Part shown: positions 1 through 48,790 of the stretch, piece after piece
Position numbering within the stretch: position 1 is the stretch's first letter
How the letters are laid out: each line of letters begins with the position of its first letter
Source: Acholoe squamosa
Lineage: Eukaryota; Annelida; Polychaeta; Phyllodocida; Polynoidae
Direction: 5' to 3'
Length of the DNA: 64,000 bases
Assembly (NCBI GenBank): GCA_949317995.1
Contig: OX439044.1
Coordinates: 11,875,141 to 11,939,140, forward strand
Made by a program: the position numbers and the translations under genes
The notes under the pieces: model-generated
What the model was told of the DNA's origin: nothing
What the model saw: only the letters and a program-made list of their open reading frames with translations
Databases searched by the model: none

Positions 1-1160
1 ATAGCAACGTCAACAGTATCAGTAACACCAATGAAACAATTACACCAAACAATACAACAAATTCTACAATATCAATAACACCAACAAGATGGTAATTACA
101 CAACTATCTCAAAAAGAAATCCACCTGTAATAAAACATAAGGGTGAACAACAACCCCATACTAATAAAGAAAACAATTAATAAAGAATTGTATAAATCTT
201 AATTAATCTAAGAAACAAGACCATAAAAAAACAACACGTACATCAGCACAATCACCTACATACAACAGCACAACATCAATGCCAACAGCAATAAACCAGC
301 CGCCAACAGCAACAACAAAAAACAACAGCAATAAAAGCTAAGCCGCCACACGGTATCTTCACCACCACAACAACAAGCATCTCTCTTTCTCTCCTCCCCT
401 CTTTTTTCCCTCACTGTTTTTACCTCGGCTCCCATCCTCTCCCTGTTATCAAATCAAAGACCCCTGTAGTGAAACAAGCCCCTTTTTATTGGCTCACTTT
501 GCGGCTGGGTGGCTGTGTATAAGTCCTAGGGGGATAAACAAAGGCTTATTGTCGTATACCACTACCACTGGAGGGATGTGTGTAGCCGCTAATAAGGCTC
601 TGATAGGCCTATGTGGGGGTGTTTTTAACTCTGCCAATTAGTGGTGTTTTTACTGCCGTCTGATGAATTACACAATAACCGCCAGCATCACTTTTACTCC
701 CCAATCATTTTTACCCCCCACTCCTCCCATTACCCCCCCCCCCACCCAACACACACTGTCTTTATCTGTTACTACTCCTACACATCCCTCCTACACTGTA
801 CAAAATGTTGACGGAATCCTCACCCCAATATTGCCAGAGATCTGTTGTTATTTTTATAGAGATTCCTTGTACATTGTACATACTGCCACCTGGGGCTTCT
901 TGTAAAAACTACACTGGTTTACTGCAATACAATCATGGTGGTTCACTGTTTAGTTTTACGAGGATCCTGGTAGATTCAACAGCTACTTTTTACAGTGTAC
1001 ATTATCCAATAGAACTAATAGTCCTCTAGATTGTCCCTTTAAATCAATTACTCATATACAGCATTCATATAACTGGTAGCGTGCCAATGATCTGCATAGG
1101 TGACTGTAAAATGGGGGTTTGTGACAGGCACAAAGATTTAACTTAGATTGAGGCATCGTA
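1..1160. other. No gene seen
   Basis: The first ~350 bases are A/C-rich simple-looking sequence with many CAACA-type runs, followed by ordinary non-coding DNA with poly-C tracts near 730-745. The short open frames here have no recognisable protein character. Nothing further can be supported. Confidence 0.6.
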
Positions 1161-1732
1161 TCAGGCACAGATTGCTACTTGGATTTTGGGTTGTGTCAGA
1201 CAAATTGCTACCTGTGTACTTACAATTTGGGTTTGGAGTCATGTACATTGCTACTTACAATTTGGACTTTGGCTCAGGCAATTTGGCCTTGGGTTAGGCA
1301 CATTGCTACCTACAATTTGGTCTTTGGCTCAGGCACATTGCTACTTACAATTTGGTCTTTGGCTCAGGCACATTGCTACTTACAATTTGGGCATTGGCTC
1401 AGGCACATTGCTACTTACAATTTGGGCTTTGACTCAGGCACGTTGCTACTTACAATTTGGGCTTTGACTCAGGCACATTGCTACTTACAATTTGGGATTT
1501 GGCTCAGGCACATTGCTACTTACAATTTGGGATTTGGCTCAGGCACATTGCTACTCACAATTTGGACTTTGACTCAGGCACATTGCTACTTACAATTTGG
1601 ACTTTGACTCAGGCACATTGCTACTTACAATTTGGGATTTGGCTCAGGCACATTGCTACTTACAATTTGGGATTTGGATCAGGTACAAACAACTACTAGT
1701 ACTTGCAGTTAGGGCTTTGGGCCAGGCACAAG
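1161..1732. repeat. 35-bp minisatellite, about 15 copies
   Basis: A 35-bp unit (core ATTGCTACTTACAATTTGG, then TTTGGCTCAGGCAC) repeats head to tail, with the clearest copies between 1250 and 1690 and decayed copies at both ends. The unit is not a multiple of three and lacks stop codons on the + strand, so long frames stay open in all three phases and read as the same peptide. These frames are a by-product of the repeat, not a gene. Confidence 0.95.
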
Positions 1733-2151
1733 CTCTGATATTAAGTTTTGGGGTTCGGGTCCTGGGCATGCAAGGCACTTCGAGAAGACCTTGCTCAAGC
1801 AAACTTTGTTCCAGTTGGAAGACGTCACGTCCTTATTATCAAAGCAGCCGTGTAGACGATACGTCCCAGTGGGCTGGCGGTACGTCCTCAGAAAGAAGGG
1901 CAGTACCTCCTTAGCCCAACAAGGCGGATGCACTCCTACACCGCCATTGATAAATACCCACGTAGTTCCTGTGCGTCCCGCTTGGTGTGCTGTAGATGGC
2001 GCTGTGAGACGCTATACGTCTTACCGCCGTATAACAACAGTACAGGACAACTATGCCAAACCAGATAAAGTCGTTTTAGTTTACTCTTTGGTACTGATAA
2101 CTCCTGCATCAGTACCACTAAGGAGCATGAACCTTCAGGCATAATGTGAGC
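1733..2151. other. No gene seen
   Basis: Unique-looking sequence of higher GC than its surroundings, with several ACGTC motifs (around 1822-1895 and 2018). No coding exon or known element was recognised. Confidence 0.4.
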
Positions 2152-2566
2152 ATTCACCCTTTACGTGCCGCTGATACATTCATGTATCATGCCAATTGCT
2201 CGGCATGATGCATCAATGCAACCCTGTCATGTAACTCACATCAGGATAGTATCAGGATAGCAAGTGTGTAACTCGCTAGGGCTGTATTCATGTATCGAGT
2301 AACTCGCTAGAGCTACATTCATGCATCGAGTAACTCGCTAGGGCTACATTCATGCATCGAGTAACTCCCTAGGGCTTCATTCATGCATCATGACCACCCC
2401 TTAGGGTTAATACGCTCTCGGAGGCTCGGCTTGATGCGCCAATGAACGACCGGCAAGCAGACATACCAGGACCTCATGGGTGCATCATGCCGACCAATTT
2501 ACATGGTGTACTCAAGGGGCACACCAGCTTAAAGGTTCAAGCAGCATACCGCCTTTAAAGGGTTAA
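2152..2566. mobile_element. CPE copy, decayed, with internal tandem
   Basis: The left end resembles CCCTTTANNTGCCGCTGATNCA and the right end reads CCGCCTTTAAAGGGTTAA, the mirror of the family terminus. The first hairpin has been replaced by a ~41-bp tandem array (about 2262-2395, three to four units of GAGTAACTCGCTAGGGCTACATTCATGCATC). The right half keeps CATCATGCCGACC. It is recognisable but rearranged. Confidence 0.75.
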
Positions 2567-3229
2567 ACCTCTTCCCACCACCCACTCCCATATACCGTCC
2601 CACCAACAACCATCCCCTTTATCAAACACTGACGCAACAAGCTCCTTTGATGATATACATTTTTCCAAGATCGATGAACAAACGCCACAAAAACAAGCTT
2701 CTCGTCCAGTATTCATTCAAGAAATCAAAGGAGTTCCCCACACAATGCAGCTAGTTCTAAAAGATAAATATGTCGCATGATTTTGCCGCGCGTCGCACGC
2801 GGCATCATTGTGGATGCTGGCGGGAGTGGCGGTGGATGTGGATCGGAGGGGCGTATAATTCATCTTGAATCCAATATTTTAAAACAGTTAAAACTGTATG
2901 GAAATGAGCTTGGTTCCTACACCCCCTTACCACCCCCATATCCTGAGCACTACACCCTCCCTCCCGCCGCTATCAGGGTCCTGCGCAACACCGCAATGAG
3001 ATTAAAATCCCTCCAACTTCTTGTGGCTATCGGGGCTGGTTGGCAGCGTTTTTGGGGGGTGAGTTGGAGGGGGATGGGGTGGTACTGGTGTGAGTGGGCG
3101 GAGGGGGGTGCTGGAGGGTGATAACTAATGGATCGCTTGTCTTGTTGAAGTCTGGAGCTGGAGATGGGGGTTAGAGAGGGGTGGTTAACCCTCCAAGTGT
3201 GATACGATCCACCTAACTCTCTCTCTCCC
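2567..3229. other. No gene seen
   Basis: C-rich then G-rich non-coding DNA; open frames on both strands around 2777-3318 come from low-complexity GGGGG/CCACC stretches. No protein family is recognisable. Confidence 0.5.
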
Positions 3230-3497
3230 CTTGATGCACGGATGCCCTTTGAGCGAGTAACTCGCCAGGATTCCATCCATGTATCACGCAGACAATATGT
3301 GGCTGATGCAGTCCTCAATTGTCAGTTTGATGCACAAATGTTGTAATGATGAGTTAATTGCCTCCACTTCATTGGTGCATCTGGATGGCAAATGGTCATG
3401 AATCACTGGGCATCATGCCCATTGGTTGGCATGATGCACCAATGAAGTGCCTGCAGGAATACCAGTATTTCATTGGTGCATCATGCTAACCCTTCGG
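3230..3497. mobile_element. CPE copy, decayed
   Basis: Contains GCGAGTAACTCGCCAGGATTCCATCCATGTATCA-type arm pieces near 3252-3290 and a second hairpin, CATGATGCACCAATGAAGTGC with TTTCATTGGTGCATCATG, at about 3428-3487. The centre of the second hairpin is altered (CTGCAGGAATACCAG instead of CTGGCGAG..CTCGCCAG). Confidence 0.7.
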
Positions 3498-3502
3498 GAG
3501 TC

Positions 3503-3614
3503 AGAGATTTATCAGAAATTCCTGGTTTTATATTCCAATATTTCTGTATTAAATTATGGTAAATTTCTGGGAAAAGGTGTTTAAAGTTTTTGTCGGCAAC
3601 TGTGTGGCATCTCT
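3503..3614. mobile_element. MITE-B copy, short
   Basis: The end TGTGGCATCTCT and the interior (AAATTCCTGGTTTTATATTCC, TTTCTGTATTAAATTATG, TTTTTGTCGGC) match the copies at 14675 and 22460. The left terminus has decayed to AGAGATTTATCAG. It abuts the CPE at its left. Confidence 0.75.
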
Positions 3615-4529
3615 GGGGAGTGTACTAAACCCATAGGTTCGGATTGATACTTGAATCAGAAATACAATTTCTCCTGCCTGCTTTTACAGCATTTCGTTAT
3701 ATCCGATGTGATTTCAGTCCATATACAACAGCAATAATATCAAACAGAATGGTGGCCAAAATGCCAGTATTCCCTACCTTTTGGAGATTTATGGGTGAAA
3801 ATACCGATGGGATACATCCCTAGGACATAGGAGAACAAATGGCATAATGTATTAATGCATTGTTTGACTCTTAAAGGGTGGAGGAGCGGGCGTGGGGGGG
3901 GGGGGTGATGAGTTTGAGGTTGAGGGTGAAGGGACCCAATAGGGTTGCTAGACTGGGAATTCACAATATTCAGGCCTAGAACTCAAACCTTGACAATAGC
4001 ACTATGAAAGGGAAGTTGACTGGGGGATCCCCTGGAAAACCCCCAAAAAAGTTTTAACATCTTTAAATTCAGCTCATTCAGGTTTAGAAGGGGGTGGTTA
4101 GGCATCGTCATACTTTATTGTTCCTAGGCAATGCTATCTGAGCCTCAAGTGATAGCAGGAGTGCTTGTTTGGAGGTAGAGCCTGGTGGGTGCATGGCGCC
4201 ACTGGTGACAACTGGGCGGGCCTGGGAAACTGGTAAGAAGAGCAGCGTGGGGGAATTTAAAAGTATTGAAAATGGGAGGATAATATGAGCGGTAAAATAT
4301 TCGGGCGACAGGAGGAAGCGGCGCGTTGCTGGATTTGAGAGGGCTGTGGGCTGTGGACGCGTAGTGGCGCTACTATGGGTGTTTTTGGTGGGTTTGGGAG
4401 GGGCTGCTAATGCCTGGGAATGCAGAGGGAATTATCAATAGTCATCGTCGTTATTATCTCCGTTATCATGGTCCATAGGGAACACCCCTGGTATCAGCAT
4501 TTTCCTCATATATAGCTACGCTAATAACA
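3615..4529. other. No gene seen
   Basis: Unique non-coding DNA. A G-run lies near 3890-3905, and a G-rich stretch at 4170-4430 carries some CpG but has no coding signal I can recognise. Confidence 0.45.
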
Positions 4530-4790
4530 GTCTGATTCCTTATACCATAGAACCCCGCATGTGGGCCCCAGCCTAAGGACCACATCAGAACCCTGGTGCA
4601 GCTTTTGGTTTATCCTGAACTAACTCAGAGTGCGGCTTATCAAAGGGGGGTTACTTGTAGAGACCTTACTTTGGAATGGGCACCATTATAGACCTCTGTT
4701 GCGTCTCATAGTATAGCCATGAAGTCAGGGTGCGGCTTCTAGGTGGGTGTGGCTTATGTGCAGGTTTTCAAGGTGCTATACTAGCGGGGT
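4530..4790. repeat. GTATAAGCCGC-family repeat, decayed
   Basis: Holds CCCCGCATGTGGGCC, TCAGAGTGCGGCTTAT, TCAGGGTGCGGCTTCT and GTGTGGCTTATGTGCAGG. These are the repeated signatures of the 'accgta..cgcgtataagccgcaccctga' elements found elsewhere in the window (a fuller inverted-repeat copy is at 41473). Boundaries are uncertain. Confidence 0.6.
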
Positions 4791-5780
4791 ACCAGTAATG
4801 CCACTTGTTCAGCATTTCAGAATTTATAACTCTTTCTGAGCTTCCTGTATAATACAGTCAGCACCTAGATATAACTTCCTCAAAATAAAATCATTAAACT
4901 ATCATTATCTCTGATTCATTGTTGACCAGAGAGTGGCATTTCTACTCTGTATAGAACCAGCAGAGGAACTCCTGAGATAGCCAAAATATTATGTTCTTTT
5001 TTTTAATCCACCAACAAACTTAACAAAAATATACAAGTTGGCTAGTGTCTTTTAAGAAGTAACAGAGCGTCATATGCTTGCATAGTACAGCAGGTTGCTG
5101 AAGTGCTGAAGTGCGCATTTATTCACCTTTATAAAGGAATGGGAGAAAAGAAAATGGATACTTATAATCTTCCATAGAGTTACCTAAGATGACATCGTCC
5201 ACTTTGAGGTTGTTTTTTTTTCTTCTTTTTTTTTGGTGGACATGTGGCGCAGTTTAAAGCTAATTAAGTAATCCCACCTGTTCGCTGCAGTATTCCTAGG
5301 GGGCAACTGGTACCCATCAGATAACCCTTGTCAGTGATACATACATGTAGTTTGATGGTAACCAGCTCAGGTTATGACTTTACTATAGGACCTGTCGTTG
5401 TAATATGAAATATGCAATTTTAGAATACCGCCCCCCCCCCTTGAGGATCTGCCCCCTGCACAAAATTTGCTTCCTACATCTCTACATATACACATTATAC
5501 CCCCCCTCCTCCACCTCCCCATAGACCACCACCCAATCCCTCTTACCACCCCTTACCCCCAGGACCTCAGTCCCTCGTCATGTTCCTTTTCCAGGGTGGA
5601 AGTCAGTGAAACTGAAGGAATATTGGACATTTTCATGAAACTTGACCCCCTCAGACATTGGGCTATGCGCGGTGGCCGTCTCTGGTGTCTGTTATGAAAA
5701 GAATGTGCTTGGTAAATGAGAGCTGTGCAATGTGAGCTGCTCCGTCACAGCTCATACTGCTCATGAGCCGCTCATAGCTC
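4791..5780. other. No gene seen
   Basis: AT-rich non-coding DNA with poly-T (5212-5235) and poly-C (5429-5440) runs. A ...TTTTCCAG followed by an open stretch to 5697 looks superficially like an acceptor and exon but matches no family I know. Confidence 0.4.
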
Positions 5781-6000
5781 TTTGAGGGCGGCTGATGCAG
5801 GAGTACATCATGCCCAGTGGTCGTCATGATGCACCAATGAAGTGCTGGCGAGACTGCTCGCCAGCACTTCATTGGTACATCATGCCGACCCTCTGGTGGT
5901 GTATGAACCCTGTAGGGTCGGCATGATGCATTAATGGAGCCCTGGCGTGTTATTTGCTAGGACTGCATTCATGCATCATGACAACTAATTGGCATGATTT
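5781..6000. mobile_element. CPE copy with intact first hairpin
   Basis: Starts TTTGAGGGCGGCTGATGCA. A near-perfect hairpin follows: GGTCGTCATGATGCACC..GCTGGCGAG, four-base loop, CTCGCCAGC..ATCATGCCGACC (about 5819-5890). The linker ends in CCCTGTAGGGTCGG. A decayed second hairpin (GAGCCCTGGCGTGTTATTTGCTAGGACTGCATTCATG) comes next. The right terminus is missing. Confidence 0.9.
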
Positions 6001-6516
6001 TCCAGGGATTTTCAAGGGGCTTCGGGACATCACCTTAAATACTATTTCCAACTTTTAAAGACCCATCTATTCCTAGACAAAACCTCTATTTAACTATACT
6101 TGAGCATTTCAGGGATTTTTCGCTCAGTCACTTTCATCCCTACATGCAGAGACGACCCCCTTCATAAAAAAAGATTCTATTAGTTTCCTGGAAAGAAAAT
6201 TAATGTTTTTGTTTTACAAGTCTTCCTGGGTTCTTTTGGCTAAAAATAAGGGCTAGACGAGGGGCGCCCCTCTTTTAGTTTACTTGCTTCAGTTAAGATA
6301 GGGGCTAAACGAAGGGCGTGCCCACTCCTTCTTTTTAAAAAGCTAGGTCAAGACCACAAAGGAATTTTGACTTTGGGGTATCATGTAGCTGTAAAAGTGT
6401 TAATACTTTTGGACATTGAGCGCTCTGCTTGTTAATCTAATTTCAATACTTACATGAGCAGTCACGTGACATGTGAGCCTTTAGTAACCTGGGTGAAACA
6501 GTCTTCTACCCACCTG
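6001..6516. other. No gene seen
   Basis: Non-coding DNA. A diverged direct repeat, AAAATAAGGGCTAGACGAGGGGCG and ATAGGGGCTAAACGAAGGGCG, occurs at about 6242-6322. Nothing else stands out. Confidence 0.4.
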
Positions 6517-6720
6517 ATCCTTTAAGGGCAGCATGATACCTAGGGTTGTGTGCTCATTGGTCGGCATGATGTACCAATGCAGTGCTGGCGAGACTACTCG
6601 CCAGCACTGCATTGGTGCATCATGCCGACCCTCCGGGAGTGTATCAAGGGTTGGCATGATGCATGGATGCAGCCCTGGGGAGTAGGCTCATTAGGACTGC
6701 ATTCATGCATCAATTCGGCA
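6517..6720. mobile_element. CPE copy with near-perfect 34-bp hairpin
   Basis: The left end reads CCTTTAAGGGCAGCATGAT. The hairpin spans 6559-6630: two 34-base arms, loop ACTA, and one arm mismatch. Its arms carry GCAGTGC/GCACTGC where most copies carry GAAGTGC/GCACTTC, so both arms changed together. A decayed CCCTGG-type second hairpin follows. Confidence 0.9.
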
Positions 6721-7689
6721 TTTTGATATGACACATCCTCCAGCCCTTAGAGGCTTTAGTATAGATTTACCAGCTAGGCGTGCAAACCAATACCCTGCTC
6801 GCCTCATCCACTTCTTTCTGGGTAAAGTCATTTAGCGAGTTGCGCTAGTTGCGTATTATTATTTTCTATCTAATTACTGCTAAATCTATCAGAAATAATT
6901 ACTTCATTGACTATGTGCGCACCGTGACAAATAGAACCCCCTATTACTACTGGTCAATTATCACGAGTATGACTGAGCTTTAATAGGAAATATAAGTTTG
7001 CAGCAAGTTTTTGAGCTGTTTAAAGTATATGTATTGTAAATACACATGTAACCTCTTGCCAAATATTGGGACACTGTAGTTAGTGAAGCATCCATGATTA
7101 TACTAGGTAGAGGTGTGCAATTATCTGGGTCTTCCTCTGGGAATTTTGGGCAAAATTAGTTTTGTTTCTTGAATAAAAAGGTAATAGACAAACCCCTTTC
7201 AAATAAATGAATAGATAAATATAGGAGATATCGCCCAGGACTTAATTGTATCAAACTGTGCCCATCATTCGCTTTTTAAAGTACATACTCTATTATATAT
7301 ACTCTTTATGGACGTTGCCAACGGCTTTGGATTTGCCCTCAGCTTTGTCGGATTTTGGCCAAACTCAAGATAACCAACCTTCTACTACTACCACCTCCCC
7401 CCCTAATTCGCCCCACATATCCCAATCTACCTCCCTGCTGCCAGTGATGTTAAGTAATCTTTATAATTCCTTAATTTTAATCATCATAGTATGCCTCTCC
7501 TGTGACACTCTCATTTCAATACATTGAAGTGAACACTAGGCAGGGGGACTATGAGGCCTGTCAGTCTATATAAATCACTCATGTTAGAGGACCTCCTAAA
7601 GCCCTCTGTACCTTCCCCTATAGCAGGCCCTATTTTTGCCCTCGCACTTCTAGTTCACAACTCCGCAGACAGAGGGAGTGCCTGGTGCA
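6721..7689. other. No gene seen
   Basis: AT-rich non-coding DNA. The short open frame near 7246-7527 (leucine/serine/threonine-rich) has no recognisable domain and no convincing splice or start context. Confidence 0.45.
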
Positions 7690-8130
7690 TTCAAAGAACG
7701 TAATCCGCGCTCATGCATACAGTTTTAGTTCTTGATTAATCCCCAGTTGATGACGAGAGAGAGAGGTATTCCATTTTAGTCGGCCCTGTGTGTGTATTTT
7801 TGTTGTTTCCGTATAGGAGATTTCCCAGTGGCGCCTGCGCACTGGTGGATTCACGCAAATGTACCCGGATGAAGGAACGCTGGCTCGCCGCTAGAGGGGG
7901 GGGGCGCTCAACGACCGCTTTTGTCCAGTCTTGGCAGCCGTCTTTGAAATCGTTTTGAATAATCCTCGATGAAATCACCGCCAAACTTACATTTACATAC
8001 AACATGTGGAGCGTTTCAATGGCGCGGACGGCATTTCTGACAGTGTTTGAAGGCTTTTTGACAAAAGGCGGGAAAGCTGTATTCTCCGTGCTGTCAGATG
8101 TGATATACCACAGCCTGCAGCGTGCATTAA
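7690..8130. promoter_or_regulatory. Possible promoter / first exon region
   Basis: A CpG-containing island in AT-rich surroundings. It holds GCGCCTGCGC at 7831-7840, a near-match to the NRF1 site, set in a longer imperfect palindrome (CAGTGGCGCCTGCGCACTGG). Downstream on the + strand an ATG at 8004 opens a short frame beginning MWSVSMARTAFLTVFEGF that runs to ~8175 and into a CPE. On the minus strand an 89-codon frame ends in the same island. I recognise neither peptide. The location suits a transcription start, but no donor site is clear. This is inference from base composition and one motif. Confidence 0.3.
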
Positions 8131-8153
8131 CCCCCCCCCCTCCAGGCTTACTC

Positions 8154-8407
8154 CTTAACCCTTTAAGAACAGCATGATGCCTTCAGGCCAATGCTCCTTT
8201 GTTGTCATGATACACTAAAACAGCACTGGCGAGTAACTCGCCGTCGCCGTATTGGGCATTATGTTGACTCCGGGATAACCTCAACCCTATAGGGTGAGCA
8301 TAATGCCTGGATGCAGCCCTGGCAAAGGGCCTTAAATAACTAATGCACAATGATACCTCTAGGTGACTAAATACATACCAACCCCTGTTTAACCCTTTAA
8401 GGGCAGA
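8154..8407. mobile_element. CPE copy, decayed, both ends visible
   Basis: The left end TTAACCCTTTAAGAACAGCATGATG and the right end TTTAACCCTTTAAGGGCAG point the same way, so this may be one copy plus the start of another. Arm remnants include GCACTGGCGAGTAACTCGCC and CCTGGATGCAGCCCTGGC; hairpin complementarity is mostly lost. Confidence 0.7.
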
Positions 8408-10230
<1,823 letters not shown>

Positions 10231-10373
10231 TCCGCATAAAGTTCACAAAGAATAATCGTTTTTCATCATTAGTTTTTAGTGGGGATTTCATATTTCATTT
10301 TGCCCCATTATGGCTGGAACGCAGCAAAAAGTTAAGGTGTTCAAGACGGGCGCGACCCCTCCACAGTGGCGGA

Positions 10374-10510
10374 TCCAGGAATTGGAAAGAGAGGGGGCGC
10401 AGCCCAAAAGTAGGAGGCACACCCCCTATTTTTGAGCAAATTTTAGTGCCAAATATAAGCAAATAAACTCTCCAAGTACTAGATATTGATCCTTTTCGAA
10501 ATCATGGATT
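10374..10510 (+). mobile_element. CAGTGGCGGATC-family MITE, 5' part
   Basis: Begins CAGTGGCGGATCCAGGA and continues with GAGGGGGCGCAGCCCAAAAG and CCCTATTTTTGAGCAAATTTT, the same interior as the complete copy at 30856. No matching right inverted end was found, so it appears truncated. Confidence 0.8.
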
Positions 10511-10619
10511 CAAGCATTAAATCATCTTCATAGTTTGGGAAGATAAGCTGTGTGAAGGTGGGATGGCCGATACTTAAGAGGCACTTAAGAGCTTAAGTGG
10601 TCGAGTTATGGGCGACTTA

Positions 10620-10850
10620 CCCTATTGGTCACTAGCTGGTCTGGAGCTGGTTCCAGCGACACACACTGATAAGAACTGATCAGATGAGACCAGCATGTCC
10701 CTGGAAGTGGGTGTTAACCAGGGACAAGGTACCCATCATTTTATGTCTTATCAGTGGGTTTTAGCTCAACCAGCGAAATTCAAGATGGTGACTCCACTAG
10801 GCCTCCATACTAAGTCCTATATGGCTAGAGCTCCTTTCTGAGAAGGGCGG
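10620..10850. repeat. Dispersed repeat R1, forward copy
   Basis: Shares long stretches, in reverse complement, with 59690-59890: TAGCTGGTCTGGAGCTGGTTCC, CAGCATGTCCCTGGAAGTGGGTGTTAACCAGGGACAAGGTACCCAT, and the motif CCACTAGGCCTCCATACT. It holds a small inner inverted repeat (TGTCCCTGG..CCAGGGACA) but no coding capacity. The family is not identified. Confidence 0.8.
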
Positions 10851-11560
10851 TGTCAGTAGATTTCATACTGCCATCTAGTGGTAAGCATCTACACTAGACC
10901 TCAGTGGGTGATAATGGGTGCATTTAGCCCTTCACTTCCGGTTGGGTTCAGATCTACTGATCGATGCGGTATTACCCATGACGTCATAGCTAGATATGGC
11001 GTTCACCAATAAACCCATTGTGGTGCCATTTCTTTTTAGTCATTAGTAGATAAACATTTGTTGATAGCTGTCTATTGTGGCTTAAATTTCTACTACAGAT
11101 ATCTTACAAAGATTGAGATTGTATCTGATCATGTTTTTTCTCATAACCTCTTTAGTTATTGCATTGGACTGCCTGCTGTCGTTCATTTGCGGGAATGTAA
11201 ATTTGATGACAATGGTAGCTCGCTGTGTGTGTGTGTGTTGGGTGGGGGGCTTTTTCAATGAAAAAAAAAGAAGAAAAGAAGCTGGTGCATTCTCGTAATA
11301 TAAAAGGTTGTGTAGGGGTCTGGTTCTGTCCGCCCCCCCATGTTACATGTTTGATTAAGTTACCACTGCAGAATATGGCCCTAAAAAAAAGCATAGGGAA
11401 AATAGAGACCTGTTTAACTTTTTTTGTGCCTTAGTAGTACATGTATGCTGGTTACAAAACCATAGTAGTTGATGATGTTGACCACCAGTAGTTGAGTTGT
11501 TCCTGACGTCCACAGACAATGAGCTGCTCAATATGTGCCATCTAAACCAACATGAGCTGC
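10851..11560. other. No gene seen
   Basis: Ordinary non-coding DNA with a short GT run (11224-11241), an A-rich tract (11261-11282) and a C-run (11332-11338). Overlapping frames on both strands here derive from these simple tracts. Confidence 0.45.
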
Positions 11561-11565
11561 TCTAA

Positions 11566-11778
11566 TTAACCCTTTAAGTACTGCTTTGTACTTTAATGTC
11601 CTTTGGTCGGCACGATGCCTGAATGCAGCCCTGGCGAGTTACTCACCAGGGCTACATTCATGCATCATACTGACCCTACGGGGAAGATACGTACACAAAG
11701 GGTCGGTGTGATGCACCAATGCAGTGCTGGGGATTTAGCTCACCAGTGTTGCATTGGTGTATCATGCCAACACATGGG
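11566..11778. mobile_element. CPE copy
   Basis: The left end reads TTAACCCTTTAAG. The first hairpin is of the CCCTGG type: GGTCGGCACGATGCCTGAATGCAGCCCTGGCGAG, loop TTA, then CTCACCAGGGCTACATTCATGCATCATACTGACC. The linker ends GGGTCGGTGTGATG, followed by a decayed GCTGG-type hairpin. The right terminus is not clear. Confidence 0.85.
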
Positions 11779-11968
11779 CATGGATTTTGATGCATTATTA
11801 TTTGGTATTAAGTTGGTTAAAGGACAGGGGAAAGAAAAAAAAATCACACTAACCAATCCAGAAATGACATTTCCATAGAATTAGTTTATTACAATGATGA
11901 AGGCTGGGACGTGTGGCTCGGCGTGTTGCAGGGATGACTCAGAGAAGACTGCTTATACCAGTAGTGTC

Positions 11969-12185
11969 TAACCCTTTAATGGCCGCTAATGCAGGAGTGC
12001 ATCATGCTTATAGATCGCCATGATGCATCGATGAAGTGCTCGCGAGTCTGCTCACCAGCACTTCATCGGTGCATCATGCTGACCCTCCGGATGTGTATCA
12101 ATCCCGTAGGGTGGGCTTGATGCATGAATGTAGCCCTTTCAAGCTGTATTCATGTATCATGCTGACCTAATTGACATGATGCATT
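11969..12185. mobile_element. CPE copy
   Basis: Starts TAACCCTTTAATGGCCGCTAATGCA. The first hairpin is GCCATGATGCATCGATGAAGTGCTCGCGAG..CTCACCAGCACTTCATCGGTGCATCATGCTGACC; both arms carry the ATCGATGAAG/CTTCATCGGT change, another paired substitution. The linker CCGTAGGGTGGG and a decayed second hairpin follow. Confidence 0.85.
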
Positions 12186-12482
12186 GAAGCAGTATCATTA
12201 CGTTAAGGACTAGATAGAGTGACTCATGGTAGTTGAGGGGAGGGGAGAGAGCAGATCAGAGCAGATCACCAAAGGTGGCTATAAAGGGGACTAATAAAGG
12301 CCGAGCCCGAGGTGAGGTGCTCCCTGAGTGGCCTATATGTGGCCTCGCAACACAATAGGACAAGCAACAACTCAGCTTTTGGCGATTTTTTATGACCTTT
12401 CTTTGGAGTTTAGTTAGCTAAATTTCTTTGTCATACATGCACAAGGAAGGCACTATGCCACATGGACAGGTTTAACCAATGT

Positions 12483-12745
12483 GTCAACCTGCGAATATAA
12501 GCCGCACTCACATAAAAATCTCACCCTTAGTTTTCGGGGAAGCTATAGGCCGTAGCAAGGTGCTGAAATGATCCATATCTATATATCATGTAATACCCAA
12601 TGTTTAAGCTGCACCCTGAGTTCAGGCTGATCCTATAAGGCGCACCAAGACTTGTAATGGTCTGTAAGCCATGGCTTACACGCAGAGTTTTACCAGCACA
12701 AGGTCCATTGCTGTCTTTGATCATCATGAGAGATAAAAACCGCCC
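12483..12745. repeat. GTATAAGCCGC-family repeat
   Basis: Contains AATATAAGCCGCACTCAC, AAGCTGCACCCTGAGTTCAGG, TATAAGGCGCACC and a CAGAGTTTTACC-type end, the recurring words of this family. Edges are uncertain. Confidence 0.6.
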
Positions 12746-13730
12746 TGGCACGGCATACAGTACTAGGTTGATAGAGTTGGCACGATGCACTCATTAGTAC
12801 CCGGCGAGTTACTCGCCAAACGAGCATAAACTCGTAGGAAGTATCCTCGTCTTAAATGGCATATGCAGCAGATTAGTTATCGGCATCACTTGAGCATTCT
12901 GGTCCTGTATGTATAAATGTGAGCCTCTTGGGGTAAACTCAGGAAGGACCTGGGAGCATTGGTATACAGTGTAGTTGAAAAGAAGCTCATTATCTAGCTG
13001 GGGTCGTTGAGGAAGGATGAACTGTCGTAGGAATGAAAAAGGAACGAGAATACATCGTAAGGTATAGTTTGTGCATGGAGGTGGTGAATCAATCTTTATA
13101 CATAGATATGTGGATGTATCTATATGTGAGTGTGATTCTGAAAAGTTCAAACATATGGGACAGTCACAGAGATGTAAGACCCTCAGAGGTTCATCTACTT
13201 TCAAAGGTCCAGAGGCCCTCAAATTTAGACTTTAGTGCAGATACTTATGTTTAGAAATCCTTCACTTGTGAATTGCTCAAGGGTCCTAAAATTGTCTAAG
13301 GTTGGATCAACACCTCTACAGTTATATTCTCTCTAGATGGCACCAAGGTTAGTGACAGACACTAGTTAGCGCTGTCATAAAGACGACTGACTCAGAGATA
13401 TAAGACATATATTTTTTTAAGGGAGGTGGGGCGGGGGTAGGGGTTTAGGTTTGAGGGCTACATCATGTATAGGGAACTTCCCCGACGAGGGGGGCAAGCT
13501 CCCTGCCCCCACCCCCTTAAATTCTACGGCAGTGTGACTGACATCAAGTCCCTTCACTATTCCCAGCTCCTACTCCAGTTGTCACATCGTTACCGCCTTA
13601 TATGGACTAAAGCTCACCGTGATGACGCCGCTCTATGACTCGTCCGCCAGTTACACCTGGTTATTGTTTTAATGCGTGTGTTATAGTAAGCACATTTCTG
13701 AGAAATGCAAAAGACAAACAATCAATGTGG
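12746..13730. other. No confident gene
   Basis: Includes a CPE fragment (GGCGAGTTACTCGCCAAAC near 12802). A 137-codon minus-strand frame at 12809-13222 is cysteine/serine/leucine-rich and matches no family I know. A frame of that length is expected by chance in 64 kb, and it has no supporting splice or start context. Confidence 0.45.
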
Positions 13731-13986
13731 TTAGCCCTTTAATTGCCGCTGATGCATTAATGCATCATGCCCATTAGCTGTCATGATGCATGAATGTAGC
13801 CCTAGCGAGTAACTCACCAGGACTACATTCAAGCATCATGCCGACCCTACGGGATTGATACACTCCCGAAGAGTTGGCATGATTCTTCAATGAAGTGCTG
13901 ATGAGCAGTCTCGCCAGCACTTCATTGGTGCATCATGCCGATCAATGGGCATGATGCATTCCTGCATCAGCGGCCTTTAAGGGTTT
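13731..13986. mobile_element. CPE, complete copy
   Basis: Both termini are present: TTAGCCCTTTAATTGCCGCTGATGCA on the left and TGCATCAGCGGCCTTTAAGGG on the right, an inverted pair. Inside are a CCCTAGCGAG-type hairpin (loop TAA), a palindromic CGACCCTACGGG..CCCGAAGAGTTGG linker and a GCTGATGAG-type hairpin (loop CAGT). This is the clearest view of the family's two-hairpin layout, about 255 bp. Confidence 0.93.
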
Positions 13987-14193
13987 TTATCTTCCTCCTG
14001 CTGTCATCACCTACCCCCAAATAACCGAACAAGGTGAGCTCAGTGCTTTATCAAACTGTCATTTTAAAACTCCATGATGCAGCACTGGTGAGTAACTCGC
14101 CCACCGGTGATGCGTTCATGCATCACCGGCCTTGATACACTCCTCAGATGCACCATAGTCAGGGCCTGTAATCAGAATATGTGAAAGGTTGAA

Positions 14194-14492
14194 GCATTTT
14201 TAGATAGAAATGTTTTCAGAGTTGAATTAGGGTAATTTGAGTGTGCCGGATTCAAATCTGTCGTACGCCAACACCTAATCCTTTGGCATATGCCCCAAAT
14301 CCAAGATGGCTGCCACCAAGGCATACTTCCCAGCGAGAATCCTAGAATCTGAAGGGAAAATATGCCTCGGTGGCAACCATTTTGGATTTGGGGCATATGC
14401 CAAAGGATTATGTGTCGGCATACAACAGATTTGAATTCAGCACTATCAAATTGCACTAATTCAACTCGGAAAACATTTCTATCCAAAAATGC
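14194..14492. mobile_element. Foldback (inverted-repeat) element, ~300 bp
   Basis: The left arm 14194-14329 and right arm ~14352-14492 are inverted copies of each other almost to the ends (GCATTTTTAGATAGAAATG..CATTTCTATCCAAAAATGC). They share internal blocks such as CCTTTGGCATATGCCCCAAAT with ATTTGGGGCATATGCCAAAGG. The loop is ~20 bases. The minus-strand open frame across it is a consequence of the repeat. It is a MITE or foldback transposon; target duplication is not evident. Confidence 0.92.
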
Positions 14493-14618
14493 CTAGCACT
14501 TCTTTACTAAGCATCTTTTGCACATTTGGCTCTAGACTACCAATATAATACTGGTGAGTTACTTGCGAGCACAGTCTGTATTGGTTCATTATGCTGACCG
14601 AAGGAACGTGGACCTAGG

Positions 14619-14960
14619 TGGGCCTCCCTGGTCCTTCTTATAAGGGTCTTAATCTTATTTACCCTGCCCCCTCCAGAGATGCCACTTTTCCTGGTTTACC
14701 AGGAATTCCTGGTTTTGATTCCAAGATTTCTGTATCAAATTATGTTTAATTCCTGGGAAAATGTGTCCCAAAGTCCAATTTTCCTGGGTTTATTTTTGTC
14801 GGCCAGTGAGTGGCATCTCAATCCCTCTTCGTGTCAGGTACACACATATGTGCTTAGGCACACACATTCATCTATTAATTGAAGTCTAATATAATTTTTT
14901 CACATGAATATGACCTAAGCTGTTGAGATGGCGTGGAACAACCATTACATGCTCACACAG
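14619..14960 (+). mobile_element. TCAC-tailed SINE, split by MITE-B
   Basis: The head GGGCCTCCCTGGTCCTTCTTATAAGGGTC lies left of 14675. The body (AGGTACACACATATGTGC, CATGAATATGACCTAAGCTG, GGCGTGGAACAACC) lies right of 14819. A complete MITE-B interrupts it, so the SINE inserted first. Confidence 0.85.
14675..14819. mobile_element. MITE-B, complete copy inside a SINE
   Basis: Terminal inverted repeat AGAGATGCCACT..AGTGGCATCTC. The interior has the small palindrome CCTGGTTTACCAGG followed by AATTCCTGGTTTTGATTCC. It is 145 bp and near-identical to the copy at 22460. The open frame through both copies (starting MPLFLVYQEFLVL) reflects shared sequence, not a gene. Confidence 0.92.
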
Positions 14961-15778
14961 ATCAAGGAGCATCAGGGGGTCCTTAAAGGGTTAACCTCCC
15001 CCCCTCCCCTTCCTGCTGACCAACATAATCATTTTCTGTGAGGAGGAAGAGTCTGGAGTGCGATTAGAGGTATTGGGTGGGGGAGGGGAGGGAATTGATG
15101 TCTGTGGTCATTGGCTCTATTTTCCTATCAGGCCCACACTAAAATTAAAGTGGACTAATTTTGTAATCCCCCGACAATTAGTCATAGGTCCTGTTAAGCA
15201 GAAAGCAAGCTCAGCTTCCTAGAAAGCAAAACGATTTGAACTGTACTGCTCGGCAATTAATTAATTAATTAATTAATTAATAATGAATTAAATAATGTAT
15301 TGGTAGCTATACTGTTGTATTGAGCATAGGGTGGCTTGTTGACGTTCCACATTTCATATCATATCCATGGCCGGAAAACTACATTACGCATCAATTTAAT
15401 GGATAAAAACGGGTGTTCGCGTCCGTAAATAGTGACACTATAGGCACACAGAAGCGGGGCTTGTTAAGACGGTAGATGGTAGACAATTTAAGTTATTGTA
15501 TATTTACCATTCCTATACATCCTTACTGTCAACTGTGCAAAATATTGATATTCATTCCTCAATTTGAACCAGAAACAAAAGAAAACAAAGGTTCGCATGG
15601 AAACTATACAAATCGGTGGAACATCCTCCTGAGTAGGCAGGCCCAGCACTGCCTTTATTGCATTTACCTCCCGGACGCCTCTCCAAATCAGATGAACAAT
15701 GACAATATTTCAAATTTGTAACAAACGTGTTTTGATCCAATAATTTCTGCCTTAGATGTGAAAGATTTATCAGGCACA
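14961..15778. other. No gene seen; (TTAA)n
   Basis: Non-coding DNA. A short TTAA tetranucleotide run lies at about 15255-15282. An 81-codon frame at 15476-15721 lacks any recognisable feature. Confidence 0.45.
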
Positions 15779-16006
15779 TTAACCCTGTAGGGACCGCTGA
15801 TGCATTAATGCATCATGTCCATTGGTCGTCATGATGCACCAATGAAGTGCTGGCGAGACTACTCGCCAGCACTTCATTGGAGCATCATGCCGACCCTCCG
15901 GGAGTTTGTGTATCAATCACTTATCCATCAATGCGCTATACATTGGTGCATCATGAGGACCAATGTGCATGATGCATTAATGCAGCAGCGGCCCTTAACG
16001 GGTTAA
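15779..16006. mobile_element. CPE, complete copy flanked by TTAA
   Basis: TTAACCCTGTAGGGACCGCTGATGCA on the left is mirrored by TGCAGCAGCGGCCCTTAACGGGTTAA on the right; both ends sit on TTAA. The GCTGG-type hairpin (loop ACTA) is nearly perfect. The second hairpin is mostly deleted. TTAA ends with CCCTTT termini are what piggyBac-type non-autonomous elements show (established for that superfamily; assignment here is inference). Confidence 0.93.
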
Positions 16007-16099
16007 GCTTCCCTCGCCATACTCACACCCTTCATTTGGTACTGTCAATGACGCACTGCGAGTTTAAATTGCACACCCGATGACGCATTGCATTTTCTA

Positions 16100-16727
16100 G
16101 GCATGTCCTCAAAATTTAGATTTCAGGACATCTATTTTTAAATTTCTTTCGAACCCGAGGCACATGAGCCTGCGCGTGCGCACACAAAAACCATTAAAAA
16201 CCAAACCTGAAAAATGCGCAGCCTTTTTGGTTTTTGCCCCTCCCCGCGCTGCCCGGGCCCCTAGACAATTAGCAATGACGAATTGTCGATCCTGGCTGAA
16301 ACGGCTGAAAAGGAAGCATTTCAAAAATAAAAGAAATTGACAAAAAAAAAAAAAATATAACTGGGTGATCCTCCTTCGTCTTTGTATTGTAAAGCCCAGC
16401 TGCTGCTCGCGTTTTCAGTTAGACAGTTGTCTGAATGACTCATTGCAGAATGTCAGCACTTTAGAACTTGTTTTTCGCTATTTTCTAATACTGATAGAAT
16501 GTCTGACACTCCCCACGCCACCCCCCCCCCCTTGGTGTGACGACTATCTGTATAAAAATCTACCCACCAATGGACCCTGGGACGGCTCAGCTTCCAGCCA
16601 ATCAGAATCCAGCCCCTCATTGGCTGCAGAGCTATTCCGCTTCCGGTGTTTTTAAGGGACGCTGGAGTGAAATAGATGTTAGATTTGAGAAGTTGGAAAA
16701 AGAAAACTTTATTGCCAATTTTCCCAG
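16100..16727 (+). promoter_or_regulatory. Putative housekeeping-type promoter and first exon
   Basis: Four promoter motifs cluster here. TGCGCGTGCGCA at 16171-16182 fits the NRF1 consensus exactly in reverse complement. CCAAT lies at 16598-16602, an inverted CCAAT (ATTGG) at 16619-16623, and an ETS core CTTCCGG at 16640-16646. About 80 bases further on is a donor-like CCCAG|GTATTG (16727/16728). NRF1, NF-Y and ETS sites are typical of TATA-less animal promoters (established knowledge). It lies 2.3 kb upstream of the first FUZ exon found and points the same way, so it may start FUZ. However, I found no FUZ N-terminal coding sequence between the two, so it could be an alternative start or serve another gene. 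Confidence 0.45.
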
Positions 16728-17723
16728 GTATTGAATAAAATTTGAGCCCCGAGGAAATGGCTTAATTGGCAAGGAAAGATTAATTTTCCTATCTCAAATC
16801 ATGAACGATCGACAAGATTTTCAAGTGAAATTACATATTACTACAGAGCTGAATAGATAATAGATACATTGCATATCAGTATCTATTATGTATAGTACGA
16901 CAAATGTATATTTCAAAATTTCATTGAGTTTTCTTAGAAAGCATCAGAATTGATCTTTGTGTTACTTTTTCTTTTGTTTTATAAAGGTTTTATTTTTTGG
17001 AATTTAAAATTTTAACAAGAGGCCGTCTTGATGATATGAAAACTTTAGTCTTGAGTCTCCATAGAACATGTCACCTGTTACCATACAGTATATTGAGTTT
17101 CCAACACAACTGGTTCAGATCCAGCAAAATGCATTGAAATCTCTTTATAGGGAGGGCCGTGGAATTGATAATAACTTTGTTAATTGCAAACAAAGCTCAT
17201 TATAACCATTACAAATGATATAGAAAGAAAAGTAGCTGCTGTCACCATTCCTTCAACGCTTTACCCGGGGTTTGGGCCTTTACCTTGGGTCACACAACAA
17301 ATCAGTGCTATAGAAAGTAGCTCATTTTAGGCTAAGAGATATCGACATAGACAACTCTGGATGTTAAACACGAATACCAAAATTAGTAGATTTTAATTTT
17401 GAAAATTGTACGTATTATCATAGGATGTCAAATATAAATATCAACATTTTAACAGAGAAATTAGTGAAATTTACCCAAATAATGATCATTAAATTAAGAA
17501 ATAACCCTAATCTTTTCAATAAGGAATCAGCCCCGAATCCCTGATTTTGCATTCAGCCACCAAAAGGCAATTTCCCCACAGAGGGAAGGCCGACAACACG
17601 GACTCCATTAACGCCGGGTGAGCCTTTTACAAAACCCCAGATACTTAAACTTCCATCTGCAGTATTTGGTTTCTCTAGTTGCAAAACCTTGTTGTGTATA
17701 AAACCCACCAGACGGCGCTGCAA
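16728..17723. other. No gene seen
   Basis: AT-rich, intron-like DNA. A GC-richer patch at 17560-17720 is open on the minus strand (residues include ...SLSIWGFVKGSPGVNGVRV) but no homologue is recognised and the frame continues into a CPE. Confidence 0.4.
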
Positions 17724-17962
17724 CCCTTTAAGGGCTTTAATGCATAGGGCCCTTTGGTCGGGATGGTGCATGATTGCAGCCCTGGCGAGTAACTCGCCAG
17801 GGCTGCATTCACGCATCATCCCGACCCTTCGGGGTTGATACATGGGTCTGCATGATGCAGCAATGCAGTGCTCAGGAGTAGGTTTGACAGTTATGCATTT
17901 GTGCATCAGGATGATTTAGGAACATGAACCTGGAGGCATCGCGCTGCCCCTAAAGGGTTAAC
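17724..17962. mobile_element. CPE copy, both ends
   Basis: The left end CCCTTTAAGGGC and the right end CTGCCCCTAAAGGGTTAA are inverted. The first hairpin is near perfect: GGTCGGGATGGTGCATGATTGCAGCCCTGGCGAG, loop TAA, CTCGCCAGGGCTGCATTCACGCATCATCCCGACC. Here GGGATG pairs with CATCCC (usual GGCATG/CATGCC), a paired change. The second hairpin is decayed. Confidence 0.9.
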
Positions 17963-18630
17963 AGAGGCAGAGTCTGACAGAAAATAGTGCATAACTGTGA
18001 CAAGGATGGGGTTGTGAAGCACCGTGTGTCTGCCTCCTCCACCCCCCCCCCCTTTCTTTTTACACCCCAGTTTCTTTATTTAGGCATTTTGAAGTATTCA
18101 TAGCCCAGTTGTTATCATTATTAACTTGTTTTATAGGGCGTTTATCCGTCGACAAAACAGCCTAATCGTCTTCAAACTCTTGTGAATTTTGTGTTGTGAC
18201 TGTATTTATTGTAGCTGGGATTGGAATAACTCAAGTCCCACGTGTTTTGTAGTTTATCACCTGTTATCAAGGATTCCACCTACTTTTATTGGCTAGTTTT
18301 ATCACTTGATTCATTGTTTACCCTACTCGTTGTTTAATTTCTATCCATTCATTTGCATAATAGGGTATTTATCCAGTGGTATTTTCAGTGGTTTATTTTC
18401 TCATTGCTTTTATTACCATTATGTCATTGAGACTAACTTTTTTTTTCTCTCAAGGCACATTTTTTCAAGGTCATGGAAGTAATAAATCTTTTACTGTTCG
18501 TCATCTTAGTGCAAGACCTTGTATATTTAAATGTCATAATACAGACCATAATGAATGTTGAAACATGTATTAGAAGTCTCAGTGATTTCAGGCAAGGCAC
18601 GATGTTCATAGTTTATATAAATGATTTCAG
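17963..18630. other. No gene seen
   Basis: Intron-like AT-rich DNA with a poly-C run (18042-18052) and T-rich tracts. A TTTTTTTTCTCTCAAG|G at ~18456 resembles an acceptor, but the sequence after it does not read as any FUZ region. Confidence 0.4.
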
Positions 18631-19071
18631 GTGTCCTACAAGCTTGTTGACAGTCCAATATTAATGGTTTCAGGTGTGCTACATGCTCGTTGACAGTCCA
18701 ATATAAATGGTTTCAGGTGTGCTGCAAGCTCGTTGACAGTGCAATATTAATGGTTTCATGTGTGATACAAGGTTTTTGACCATCCAAAATTAATGTTTTC
18801 AGGTGACAGTCAAATGTTAATAGTTTCAGGTCAGCTACAGGCTCGTTGACAGTCCAGTGTTAATGGTTTCAGGTGTACTACAAACTTGTTGACAGTCCAA
18901 TATTAATGGTTTCATGTGTGCTACAAGCTCGTTGACAGTCCAATATTAATGGTTTCAGGTGTGATACAAGGTTTTTGACCATCCAAAATTAATGTTTTCA
19001 GGTGACAGTCAAATGTTAATGGTTTCAGGTCAGCTACAAATTTGTTGACAGTCCAATATTAATGGTTTCAG
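18631..19071 (+). repeat. 43-bp minisatellite copying the FUZ intron-exon junction
   Basis: Eleven head-to-tail units start at 18631, 18674, 18717, 18760, 18803, 18830, 18873, 18916, 18959, 19002 and 19029. Nine are exactly 43 bp; two (18803, 19002) are 27 bp through the same 16-bp deletion. Each unit is GTGTGCTACAAGCTNGTTG + ACAGTC, matching the first 25 nt of the coding exon at 19072, then CAATATTAATGGTTTCAG, matching the end of the intron. A 113-bp block (18760-18872) is repeated at 18959-19071. Nine of eleven units end in CAG; two end in CAT. The array therefore presents tandem copies of a 3' splice site ahead of the real exon. Confidence 0.95.
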
Positions 19072-19182
19072 GTGTGCTACAAGCTTGTTGACAGTCTCCT
19101 GGAGCAGACGGCAGGGTTCACCTTCGGCCCTATGGTGCAGTGCGTGGATGTGGTCGCTGCCCCAGAAAATGCCATCCTCCAG
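19072..19182 (+). CDS. FUZ: FUZ (Fuzzy) exon, internal, 37 codons
   Basis: Fuzzy is a longin-domain protein of the CPLANE complex (with INTU and WDPCP). It acts at the base of cilia in planar polarity, ciliogenesis and RAB23 activation (established for vertebrates and flies). This exon is phase 0 at both ends: AATGGTTTCAG|GTG at the start and CTCCAG|GTAAGG at the end. It reads VCYKLVDSLLEQ, then MVQCVDVVAAPENAILQ. From memory, vertebrate Fuz has SYCLIDSFLGDS followed by LTQCVDCVIPPEGSLLQ at the same place, around residue 140-175. The upstream junction is copied in the adjoining 43-bp minisatellite. I chose the last acceptor (19071) because only it gives an uninterrupted frame with the family match; adding one 43-nt unit would break the frame. 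Confidence 0.93.
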
Positions 19183-29609: not shown

Positions 29610-29807
29610 ACGTACCTGGAGGCGTTAGTAGAGACTGCGGCCTCACCGTATGGTTGCCTCCTGGTCCATGGGAGGGTGGCAGTGGCCACCCCCCGCTGGT
29701 GGGGCCTCACCCCGGCAGAGTTAGGACTCCTGCCGCTCCTCCTCCACTCCCTGCCGCCTGCCTCTTCCCGGGACCTCCCGGTCTTCCTGCCCGACGGCAG
29801 CCCTAAG
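29610..29807 (+). CDS. FUZ: FUZ exon, internal, 66 codons
   Basis: Phase 0 at both ends: CTATATATTTCAG|ACG and CCTAAG|GTCAGA. The exon begins TYLEALVETAASPYG, then HGRVAVATPRWWGLTP, and ends SLPPASSRDLPVFLPDGSPK. Vertebrate Fuz has (from memory) VVSGRVVAATEGWWRL and SLPPQTARDYPVYLPHGSP at the same spacing, about residues 185-245. The WW pair and the R-D-x-P-V-x-L-P-x-G-S-P motif are the strongest family marks in the window. It belongs to the longin-type middle of the protein. The GC content is well above its surroundings, as expected of a coding exon. The joined frame to the next exon is open. Confidence 0.96.
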
Positions 29808-30677: not shown

Positions 30678-30773
30678 GTACCTCATCGACTACTGACCTT
30701 CACCTTGTTACCAGGGGTGGAAGTGTGCACCCTGTGCGGTCCTGCACCCTCCCTGGCCGAGCTGGAGAGAGAG
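30678..30773 (+). CDS. FUZ: FUZ exon, internal, 32 codons
   Basis: Phase 0 at both ends: TGTCCTCCAG|GTA and GAGAGAGAG|GTGAGT. It reads VPHRLLTFTLLPG, then CTLCGPAPSLAELERE. Vertebrate Fuz has (from memory) VPHRLLTLTLLPS then LCLLCGPSPPLSQL directly after the PVYLPHGSP motif that ends the previous exon here. The order and spacing of exons are therefore conserved. Confidence 0.96.
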
Positions 30774-35537: not shown

Positions 35538-35635
35538 GTTATCCGATTCTGGCGGACGTCCCTGGACTCCCTTCGCTCCATTCTAAGACAGAAAGCCTTC
35601 CCCTCTTCCGCAACCCTCGACCATAATCTATTGGG
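35538..35635 (+). CDS. FUZ: FUZ exon, internal, 32 codons plus 2 nt
   Basis: Acceptor CATTTTGCTTCAG|GTT (phase 0), donor TTGGG|GTGAGT leaving two bases of a glycine codon. It reads VIRFWRTSLDSLRSILRQ and ends LDHNLLG. In vertebrate Fuz the segment after CGPSPPLSQL is (from memory) LLERWWQPLLDPLRACL..LHTDILG: same length, with the conserved W, L-D-x-L-R and final LG. The phase joins exactly with the next exon. Identity is weaker than in the other exons, but position, phase and pattern support it. Confidence 0.88.
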
Positions 35636-36818: not shown

Positions 36819-36892
36819 ATTTATTCTACTAAACCGTGATACGCACAGATGCATCTCCACCGTGGAACCGCACGATGAGGACAGCCGGCAAG
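36819..36892 (+). CDS. FUZ: FUZ exon, internal, 74 nt
   Basis: Acceptor TTAATTCCAG|A supplies the third base of the split glycine; donor CAAG|GTAATT leaves one base. The frame reads FILLNRDTHRCISTVEPHDEDSRQ. Vertebrate Fuz has (from memory) LLLLHLELKRCLFTVEPLGDKEPS here: the R-C-x-x-T-V-E-P core is shared. This is the last FUZ exon I can see; about 90 C-terminal residues should follow. A 46-bp minisatellite begins only ~45 bases after the donor. Confidence 0.94.
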
Positions 36893-36929: not shown

Positions 36930-37625
36930 TTATGGCAGAATGCTGCCTTAATGTACTTCATGTCCGCATTATGGTGCCAAATTGTACCCTAATGCCTAGT
37001 ACTATATGCCGGCCCTATGGGGGCAAATTGTGCATTAATGCCTAGTACTTTATGTCAGCCCTATGGGGGCAAATTGTACCCTAATGCCTAGTACTTTATG
37101 TCGGCCCTATGGGGGCAAATTGTGCATTAATGTCTAGTACTTAATGCCGGCCCTATGGGGGCAAATTGTACCCTAATGCCTAGTACTTTATGTCGGCCCT
37201 ATGGGGGCAAATTGTGCATTAATGCCTAGTACTTTTTGTCAGCCCTATGGGGGCAAATTGTACCCTAATACCTAGTACTTTATGTCAGCCCTATGGGGGC
37301 AAATTGTACCCTAATGCCTAGTACTTTATGTCAGCCCTATGGGGGCAAATTGTACCCTAATGCCTAGTACTTTATGCCGGCCCTATGGGGCCAAATTGTG
37401 CATTAATGCCTAGTACTTTTTGTCAGCCCTATGGGGGCAAATTGTACCCTAATACCTAGTACTTTATGTCAGCCCTATGGGGCTGACAGTCCCAAAGGGC
37501 CGGCATGATGAACCAATGCAGCACTGGCGAGTAGACCCGCCAGTGCTGAATTGGTGCATCGTAATGACTGAGGAACATTCATGAACCTATAGGCATATCA
37601 TGCGGCCCTTATAGAATTTAGCATT
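36930..37625. repeat. CPE expanded by a 46-bp minisatellite
   Basis: Starts TTAACTCCTTTATGGCAG, the family left end. It then runs into about 11 tandem units (roughly 36975-37487) of GCCCTATGGGGGCAAATTGT + ACCCTAATGCCTAGTACTTTATGTCG. The GTCGGCCCTATGGGG part of the unit corresponds to the CPE linker CCGACCCTACGGGG. After the array comes a normal CPE hairpin (GCATGATGAACCAATGCAGCACTGGCGAG, then CCGCCAGTGCTGAATTGGTGCATCG) and the end ATGCGGCCCTTATAG. The tandem array grew inside an element. Confidence 0.85.
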
Positions 37626-48120: not shown

Positions 48121-48272
48121 GTAGGGGCCAGCTCTGGCTGTGAGTCCATGGCAGTATGCTATCTGTCCCCATTCCAGTTGCACCAGCCCCCAGGGGCTGG
48201 TCAGTCAGTGAACACTGCCCCCTTGTGTCATACCGATCCAGATGTAGGTGGAAGGTAGAGAATGTCAGGTCT

Positions 48273-48344
48273 GGGGATGTAGCTCAGTGGTAGAGCGCTC
48301 GCTTGCAAGTTGAGAGGTCGCAAGTTCGAAACCCGGTGTTTCCA
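48273..48344 (+). tRNA. tRNA-Ala-like gene, anticodon GCA, copy 1
   Basis: 72 nt. GGGGATG/TGTTTCC acceptor stem with G3-U70, the main alanine identity pair, though four of the seven pairs are G-U. D arm GCTC..GAGC. Anticodon arm CTCGC-TTGCAAG-TTGAG with one mismatch, giving GCA at 34-36 (a cysteine anticodon). Variable AGGTC. T arm GCAAG-TTCGAAA-CCCGG, poorly paired. TTTT at 48351, seven bases after the end, fits a Pol III terminator. It looks derived from tRNA-Ala(UGC); probably a pseudogene or part of a tRNA-derived repeat. Confidence 0.55.
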
Positions 48345-48760: not shown

Positions 48761-48790
48761 AGTATGTTTTCGCCGACCTCTACACTAGAG

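Follow-up and report, generated by a model that had tools for sequence, protein, structure and literature searches.

The window, a 64,000-nucleotide stretch of contig OX439044.1 from the polynoid annelid Acholoe squamosa, was analyzed together with 100 kb on either side (264 kb in total), and all positions given here, including those below 1 or above 64,000 that fall outside it, are counted from its first letter. FUZ, a cilia/ciliogenesis and cell-polarity (planar-polarity) gene, was recognized from eight exons which, when joined, matched residues 37 to 354 of the mammalian protein (9rs8_A/7q3d_C) in a homology search with an E value of 6.5e-82, and whose product matched the second longin domain of FUZ (Pfam Fuz_longin_2, 1.5e-21). 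All eight exons were bordered by AG and GT, and the homology ran through them in protein order. By homology, the gene carrying the array-flanked exon at 19072 can thus be firmly assigned to FUZ, as the initial annotation had it. Five of the eight exons lie in the window, all on the plus strand: A (19072 to 19182; 111 nt, phase 0 at both ends, VCYKLVDSLLEQTAGFTFGPMVQCVDVVAAPENAILQ, donor CAG|GTAAGG), B (29610 to 29807), C (30678 to 30773), D (35538 to 35635), and D2 (36819 to 36892). The remaining three lie outside it: exon T (-67322 to -67201), exon U (-16037 to -15884), which precedes exon A across an intron of about 35 kb and measures 154 nt with the first of its donors (donor 1), and exon E (94890 to 95027). 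Among the 16 ends of these exons, copies within 4 kb were found for two only, the donor of exon U and the acceptor of exon A, which are the two ends of the same intron; exons B, C, D, and D2 had no copy of their own ends over that distance.

Other features of the locus were also recorded. The eight exons span about 162 kb (-67322 to 95027), which is very large for FUZ, and inside the gene tRNA-Cys (GCA) genes were seen at two places on the same strand, separated by about 340 bp (48272 to 48345 and 48688 to 48761). A crude coding score revealed no second multi-exon gene in the 264 kb, and three stop-free open reading frames outside the window had no Pfam match.

Directly upstream of exon A, sequence comparison and TRF revealed a tandem array (18631 to 19053, plus strand) that, together with the 18 nt at 18613 to 18630, holds 11 upstream copies of the acceptor junction of this exon. 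Its 43-bp unit joins 18 nt of the intron end to the first 25 nt of exon A (19072 to 19182, plus strand), the composition originally described. With the true junction included, 12 junctions were found, ending at 18630, 18673, 18716, 18759, 18802, 18829, 18872, 18915, 18958, 19001, 19028, and 19071 (the true one), at successive spacings of 43, 43, 43, 43, 27, 43, 43, 43, 43, 27, and 43 nt. The earlier count of eleven upstream repeats stands, but two of them are partial: nine are full 43-mers that match the true junction at 36 to 41 of 43 positions, whereas the copies at 18802 and 19001 reach only 26 and 25 of 43 ungapped matches because their exon part is truncated (a 27-nt unit), with a 27-nt step after each. 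The acceptor CAG is kept in 9 of the 11 upstream copies (10 of 12 counting the true site), again as first reported; the two lost acceptors, at 18757 to 18759 and 18913 to 18915 (both plus strand), read CAT. The 5'-most copy of the intron tail (18613 to 18630, plus strand), which is identical to the true tail at 14 of 18 positions and keeps its AG, probably represents the ancestral side of the intron.

These copies cannot be put down to chance similarity, since outside the array neither strand of the window holds anything closer to the 43-mer than 23 of 43 positions. That tandem repeats are error-prone in assembly, and that a single assembly was examined, might suggest that the array is an assembly artefact. 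We consider this exceedingly unlikely, given that the copies differ from one another by several bases, that they fall into a higher-order pattern with a period of 199 bp (254 of 285 positions identical at that lag), and that a search of the genome (1.48 Gb, 63 contigs) with the junction returned, among the best candidates scored, eight matches, all inside this array.

The start of exon A at 19072 proved sound. The true intron end (19054 to 19071, plus strand), with its acceptor CAG, contains a TAA at 19060 to 19062 that closes the reading frame of exon A upstream, the homology begins at 19078, and the sole AG between this stop and the first homologous residue is that at 19070 to 19071, so a functional FUZ must use the acceptor at 19071.

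The donor junction of exon U, at the other end of the intron, was likewise found to be an array (TRF, 53 bp by 12.7 copies, 91%), with a unit made of roughly 40 nt from the exon's end and the first 13 nt of the intron. A scan with the last 25 nt of exon U recovered 13 downstream copies, matching at 21 to 25 of 25 positions, which makes 14 donor junctions with the true one. AAG|GT is kept in 13 of these, as returned by a regular expression requiring that motif; the remaining one, read by eye and found also as a copy of the exon tail, has lost its GT. Of the 13 intact donors, 11 begin the intron with GTAGGT and 2 with GTTAGT, and the former share an identical nine bases, AAGGTAGGT. The second donor is one of these: it has the same nine bases as donor 1, lies 51 nt further on, and would give an exon of 205 nt.

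How often such an arrangement might arise by chance was assessed by placing the TRF arrays of the 264 kb at random against the 16 FUZ exon ends at several cut-offs. Minisatellites covered 2.5 to 5.4% of the region, depending on the cut-off, and at least 2 of the 16 ends fell in arrays in 18.5 to 26.4% of draws; an array at a junction is therefore not surprising in a region so rich in repeats. With either of the two stricter cut-offs, the final part of the acceptor array was no longer included, and the observed number of exon ends in arrays fell to one. Finding both ends of one intron in arrays was mildly surprising (1.5 to 2.4% of draws).

Minisatellites were seen elsewhere in the region as well. 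A 46-bp by 11.5 array (36953 to 37482) starts 60 nt after exon D2; it was considered as a further "mirage," an array built from an exon/intron boundary, and rejected, as it holds no copy of the ends of that exon. Outside the window, a 65-bp by 34 array (98112 to 100327) lies about 3 kb after exon E, and an 84-bp by 10.3 array (113287 to 114150) is open over long stretches of its minus strand. Also outside the window, the intron between exons D2 and E contains a stop-free stretch of 614 codons (71800 to 73641) with no Pfam match, just before which a 27-bp by 7.2 array reads as a nine-residue repeat.

The reading frame leaves little room for alternative use of the copied sites. The 13 donors and 10 acceptors form 130 pairs, of which 128 run into a stop before exon A ends. 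One of the two open pairs joins donor 1 to 19071, with exons of 154 and 111 nt, and the solved FUZ protein aligns without a gap across this joint; frame and homology together point to splicing from donor 1 to 19071. The other joins the second donor to 19071 and adds 17 residues. It is conceivable that this donor is used at some level to produce a FUZ with the extra residues VGLTNIKNIERFKREIK, inserted in frame and repeating the sequence just before them: it is the sole other open pair of the 130, and the donor has the same nine bases as donor 1 and gives the 205-nt exon. Such an isoform nonetheless seems quite improbable, as the solved FUZ aligns without any such insert and, according to PMC9225289, when two identical donors competed in exon-defined minigenes, the upstream one alone was used.

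On the acceptor side, the frame bears on two proposals of the initial annotation. That use of the next acceptor upstream would meet a stop was borne out, and extends to each of the nine upstream AGs used alone. That isoforms might come from the inclusion of three units (129 nt) fails: the 27-bp units disrupt the phase, the position 129 nt before 19071 has no AG, and stops occur in all 15 in-frame AG-to-GT cassettes of acceptor units. The distances from 19071 back to the lost AGs at 18759 and 18915 (312 and 156 nt) are both divisible by 3, and selection against in-frame acceptors was also considered as the cause of the loss; it was rejected, since stops follow in the frame read from either point in any case, so that the frame does not account for it.

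Splice sites were scored with rough human matrices not fitted to this animal. On that scale, 6 of the 10 AG sites score equally, with the true site at 19071 among them, which agrees with the earlier description of ten tandem, near-identical acceptors ahead of one exon. With identical sequences at 11 of 13 donors and equal scores at 6 of 10 acceptors, site strength cannot decide the choice. By the same human matrix, 19071 scores 5.8, versus 9.5 for the acceptor of exon B and 8.3 for that of exon C, a weakness that counts against the explanation we favor below.

A candidate branch point was found in the copied exon itself. The branch-point consensus is yUnAy, and TTGAC, a fair match to it, occurs at 19045 to 19049 (plus strand), 23 nt before 19071 and within the stretch of the preceding unit that derives from the exon. 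The same motif stands 23 nt ahead of an AG or former AG at 9 of the 12 junction positions, always in exon-derived sequence, and it also occurs 22 nt before the unrelated acceptor of exon C. Although each full unit brings just 18 nt of intron, it may thus still make a complete acceptor because the copied exon supplies TTGAC, the exon-derived motif of one unit being the probable branch point for the next acceptor. Three observations count against this role: TTGAC is absent before 18630, it lies 50 nt away at 18829 and 19028, and an AG ends 3 nt after the candidate branch A at 19048.

If strength does not discriminate, position may. As reported in PMC9225289, sites nearest across the exon are preferred where the flanking introns are long, a preference that is clear for donors and weak for acceptors: with competing acceptors under exon definition, the upstream preference was merely reduced, and no downstream preference appeared. 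The notion that the spliceosome must choose among equal acceptors is therefore upheld as to their strength, but the choice is less open than it implied, because the exon-nearest site is favored, if weakly for acceptors, according to that study.

Recursive splicing would offer another way of dealing with so many sites. Here the AG|GT of each unit would serve as an acceptor and then as a regenerated donor, with the intron removed stepwise and wrong choices re-spliced to the next unit. AG and GT are juxtaposed at 10 of the 12 junction positions, and the junctions taken as donors score 4.0 to 7.8, against 6.8 for the donor of exon B on the human matrix. Recursive splice sites have a strong pyrimidine tract and a consensus donor after the AG, whereas the tracts here are weak (pyrimidines at 5 to 6 of 12 positions) and the donors are mostly GTGTGC-like (also GTCAGC and GTGACA) instead of GTAAGT. 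We regard this mechanism as very unlikely. That the donor and acceptor arrays might base-pair with each other over the intron was also considered and rejected, the unit duplex scoring -24.7 against a shuffled mean of -28.6.

The explanation that we consider likely is that the intron of about 35 kb bears a mirage at each end, is spliced from donor 1 to 19071, and carries arrays that are mainly tolerated by-products. At both ends, the tandem unit holds the intron end plus adjoining exon sequence, and the splice dinucleotides are kept in 10 of 12 acceptor and 13 of 14 donor junctions. The copies would have arisen by repeated local duplication and unequal exchange, as in other minisatellites. Because the flanking introns are long, splice sites would be paired across the exon, with preference among equal ones for the site closest to the exon, so that the first donor is joined to the last acceptor; the outer sites would lose because they would extend exons U and A to lengths of up to 816 and 552 nt. 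Leakage to near copies would lead to a premature stop and presumably to decay. Splicing is expected to be correct with some leakage at the acceptor side, which may leak because PMC9225289 reports no downstream preference among acceptors. That the arrays are a tolerated by-product is most likely, and they may modestly affect FUZ output.

A larger effect would follow if the copy number at either end set the share of transcripts that is mis-spliced and degraded, so that length alleles tuned the FUZ level. The arrangement lends itself to such a dial, in that each of the nine upstream AGs leads to a stop, 128 of the 130 pairs are closed, and the sites are near-equal in strength; moreover, according to PMC5954066, the length of an intronic variable-number tandem repeat (VNTR) in human ABCA7 is correlated with reduced expression and increased exon skipping. 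We nevertheless judge it unlikely, as retention of one unit at ABCA7 is described there as unchanged by array length, and the amphioxus mirages are reported, in PMC3087553 and PMC3902484, without disturbance of splicing. In its two-sided, mutable form, in which 13 donors and 10 acceptors, arrayed at opposite ends of one intron in an animal outside the lancelets and with an exon-supplied branch point, set FUZ mis-pairing by their number, the proposal is likewise doubtful. Mainly tolerated arrays remain our preferred reading.

If the arrays are spliced correctly, the locus is a natural experiment in which 130 near-equivalent donor/acceptor pairs occur in one transcript, and would allow a direct test of whether proximity across the exon, and not site strength, decides the choice. 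It would also show that minisatellites spanning a boundary occur outside lancelets and can take in both ends of the same intron, and two-ended arrays would bear on intron growth and on the possible origin of new introns or exons. Should copy number alter leakage, the arrays would be a mutable regulator of a planar-polarity/ciliogenesis gene.

Several known systems resemble the FUZ arrays in part. (i) In the Rogers model, cited in PMC3087553, introns are gained by tandem duplication of AG/GT proto-splice sites; the FUZ units carry AG|GT and could likewise become new exons or introns, but no new exon is found at FUZ, where all 15 in-frame acceptor cassettes are stopped. (ii) In intron 18 of human ABCA7 (PMC5954066), a VNTR with a 25-bp unit that begins with the donor shares with FUZ its exon-adjacent tandem units carrying a donor, and use of a further one adds a unit and shifts the frame; people differ in its length, with which both expression and exon skipping are correlated, whereas FUZ is known from one haplotype, and the FUZ unit, unlike that of ABCA7, includes exon sequence. 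(iii) The amphioxus mirages (PMC3087553, PMC3902484), minisatellite-like tandem copies of exon/intron boundaries in Adh3, the globins BflGb6 and BflGb9, PGBD5, and troponin C, are reported to leave regular splicing undisturbed and come closest: they too lie on the donor or acceptor side, keep AG/GT in many units, and consist of imperfect units. The initial annotation knew of no such case for FUZ, but arrays of this kind have already been described. The genome analyzed here, at 1.48 Gb, is far larger than those of lancelets (about 0.5 Gb). The closest case, lancelet PGBD5, carries two arrays, over the neighboring exons 3 and 4, and the text available does not state that they copy both ends of one intron; nor did a small literature search, which is not proof, find a prior account of such copying. 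At FUZ, by contrast, the same intron is copied at both ends, 14 times on the donor side and 12 on the acceptor side, an arrangement that looks new and probably lies outside lancelets.
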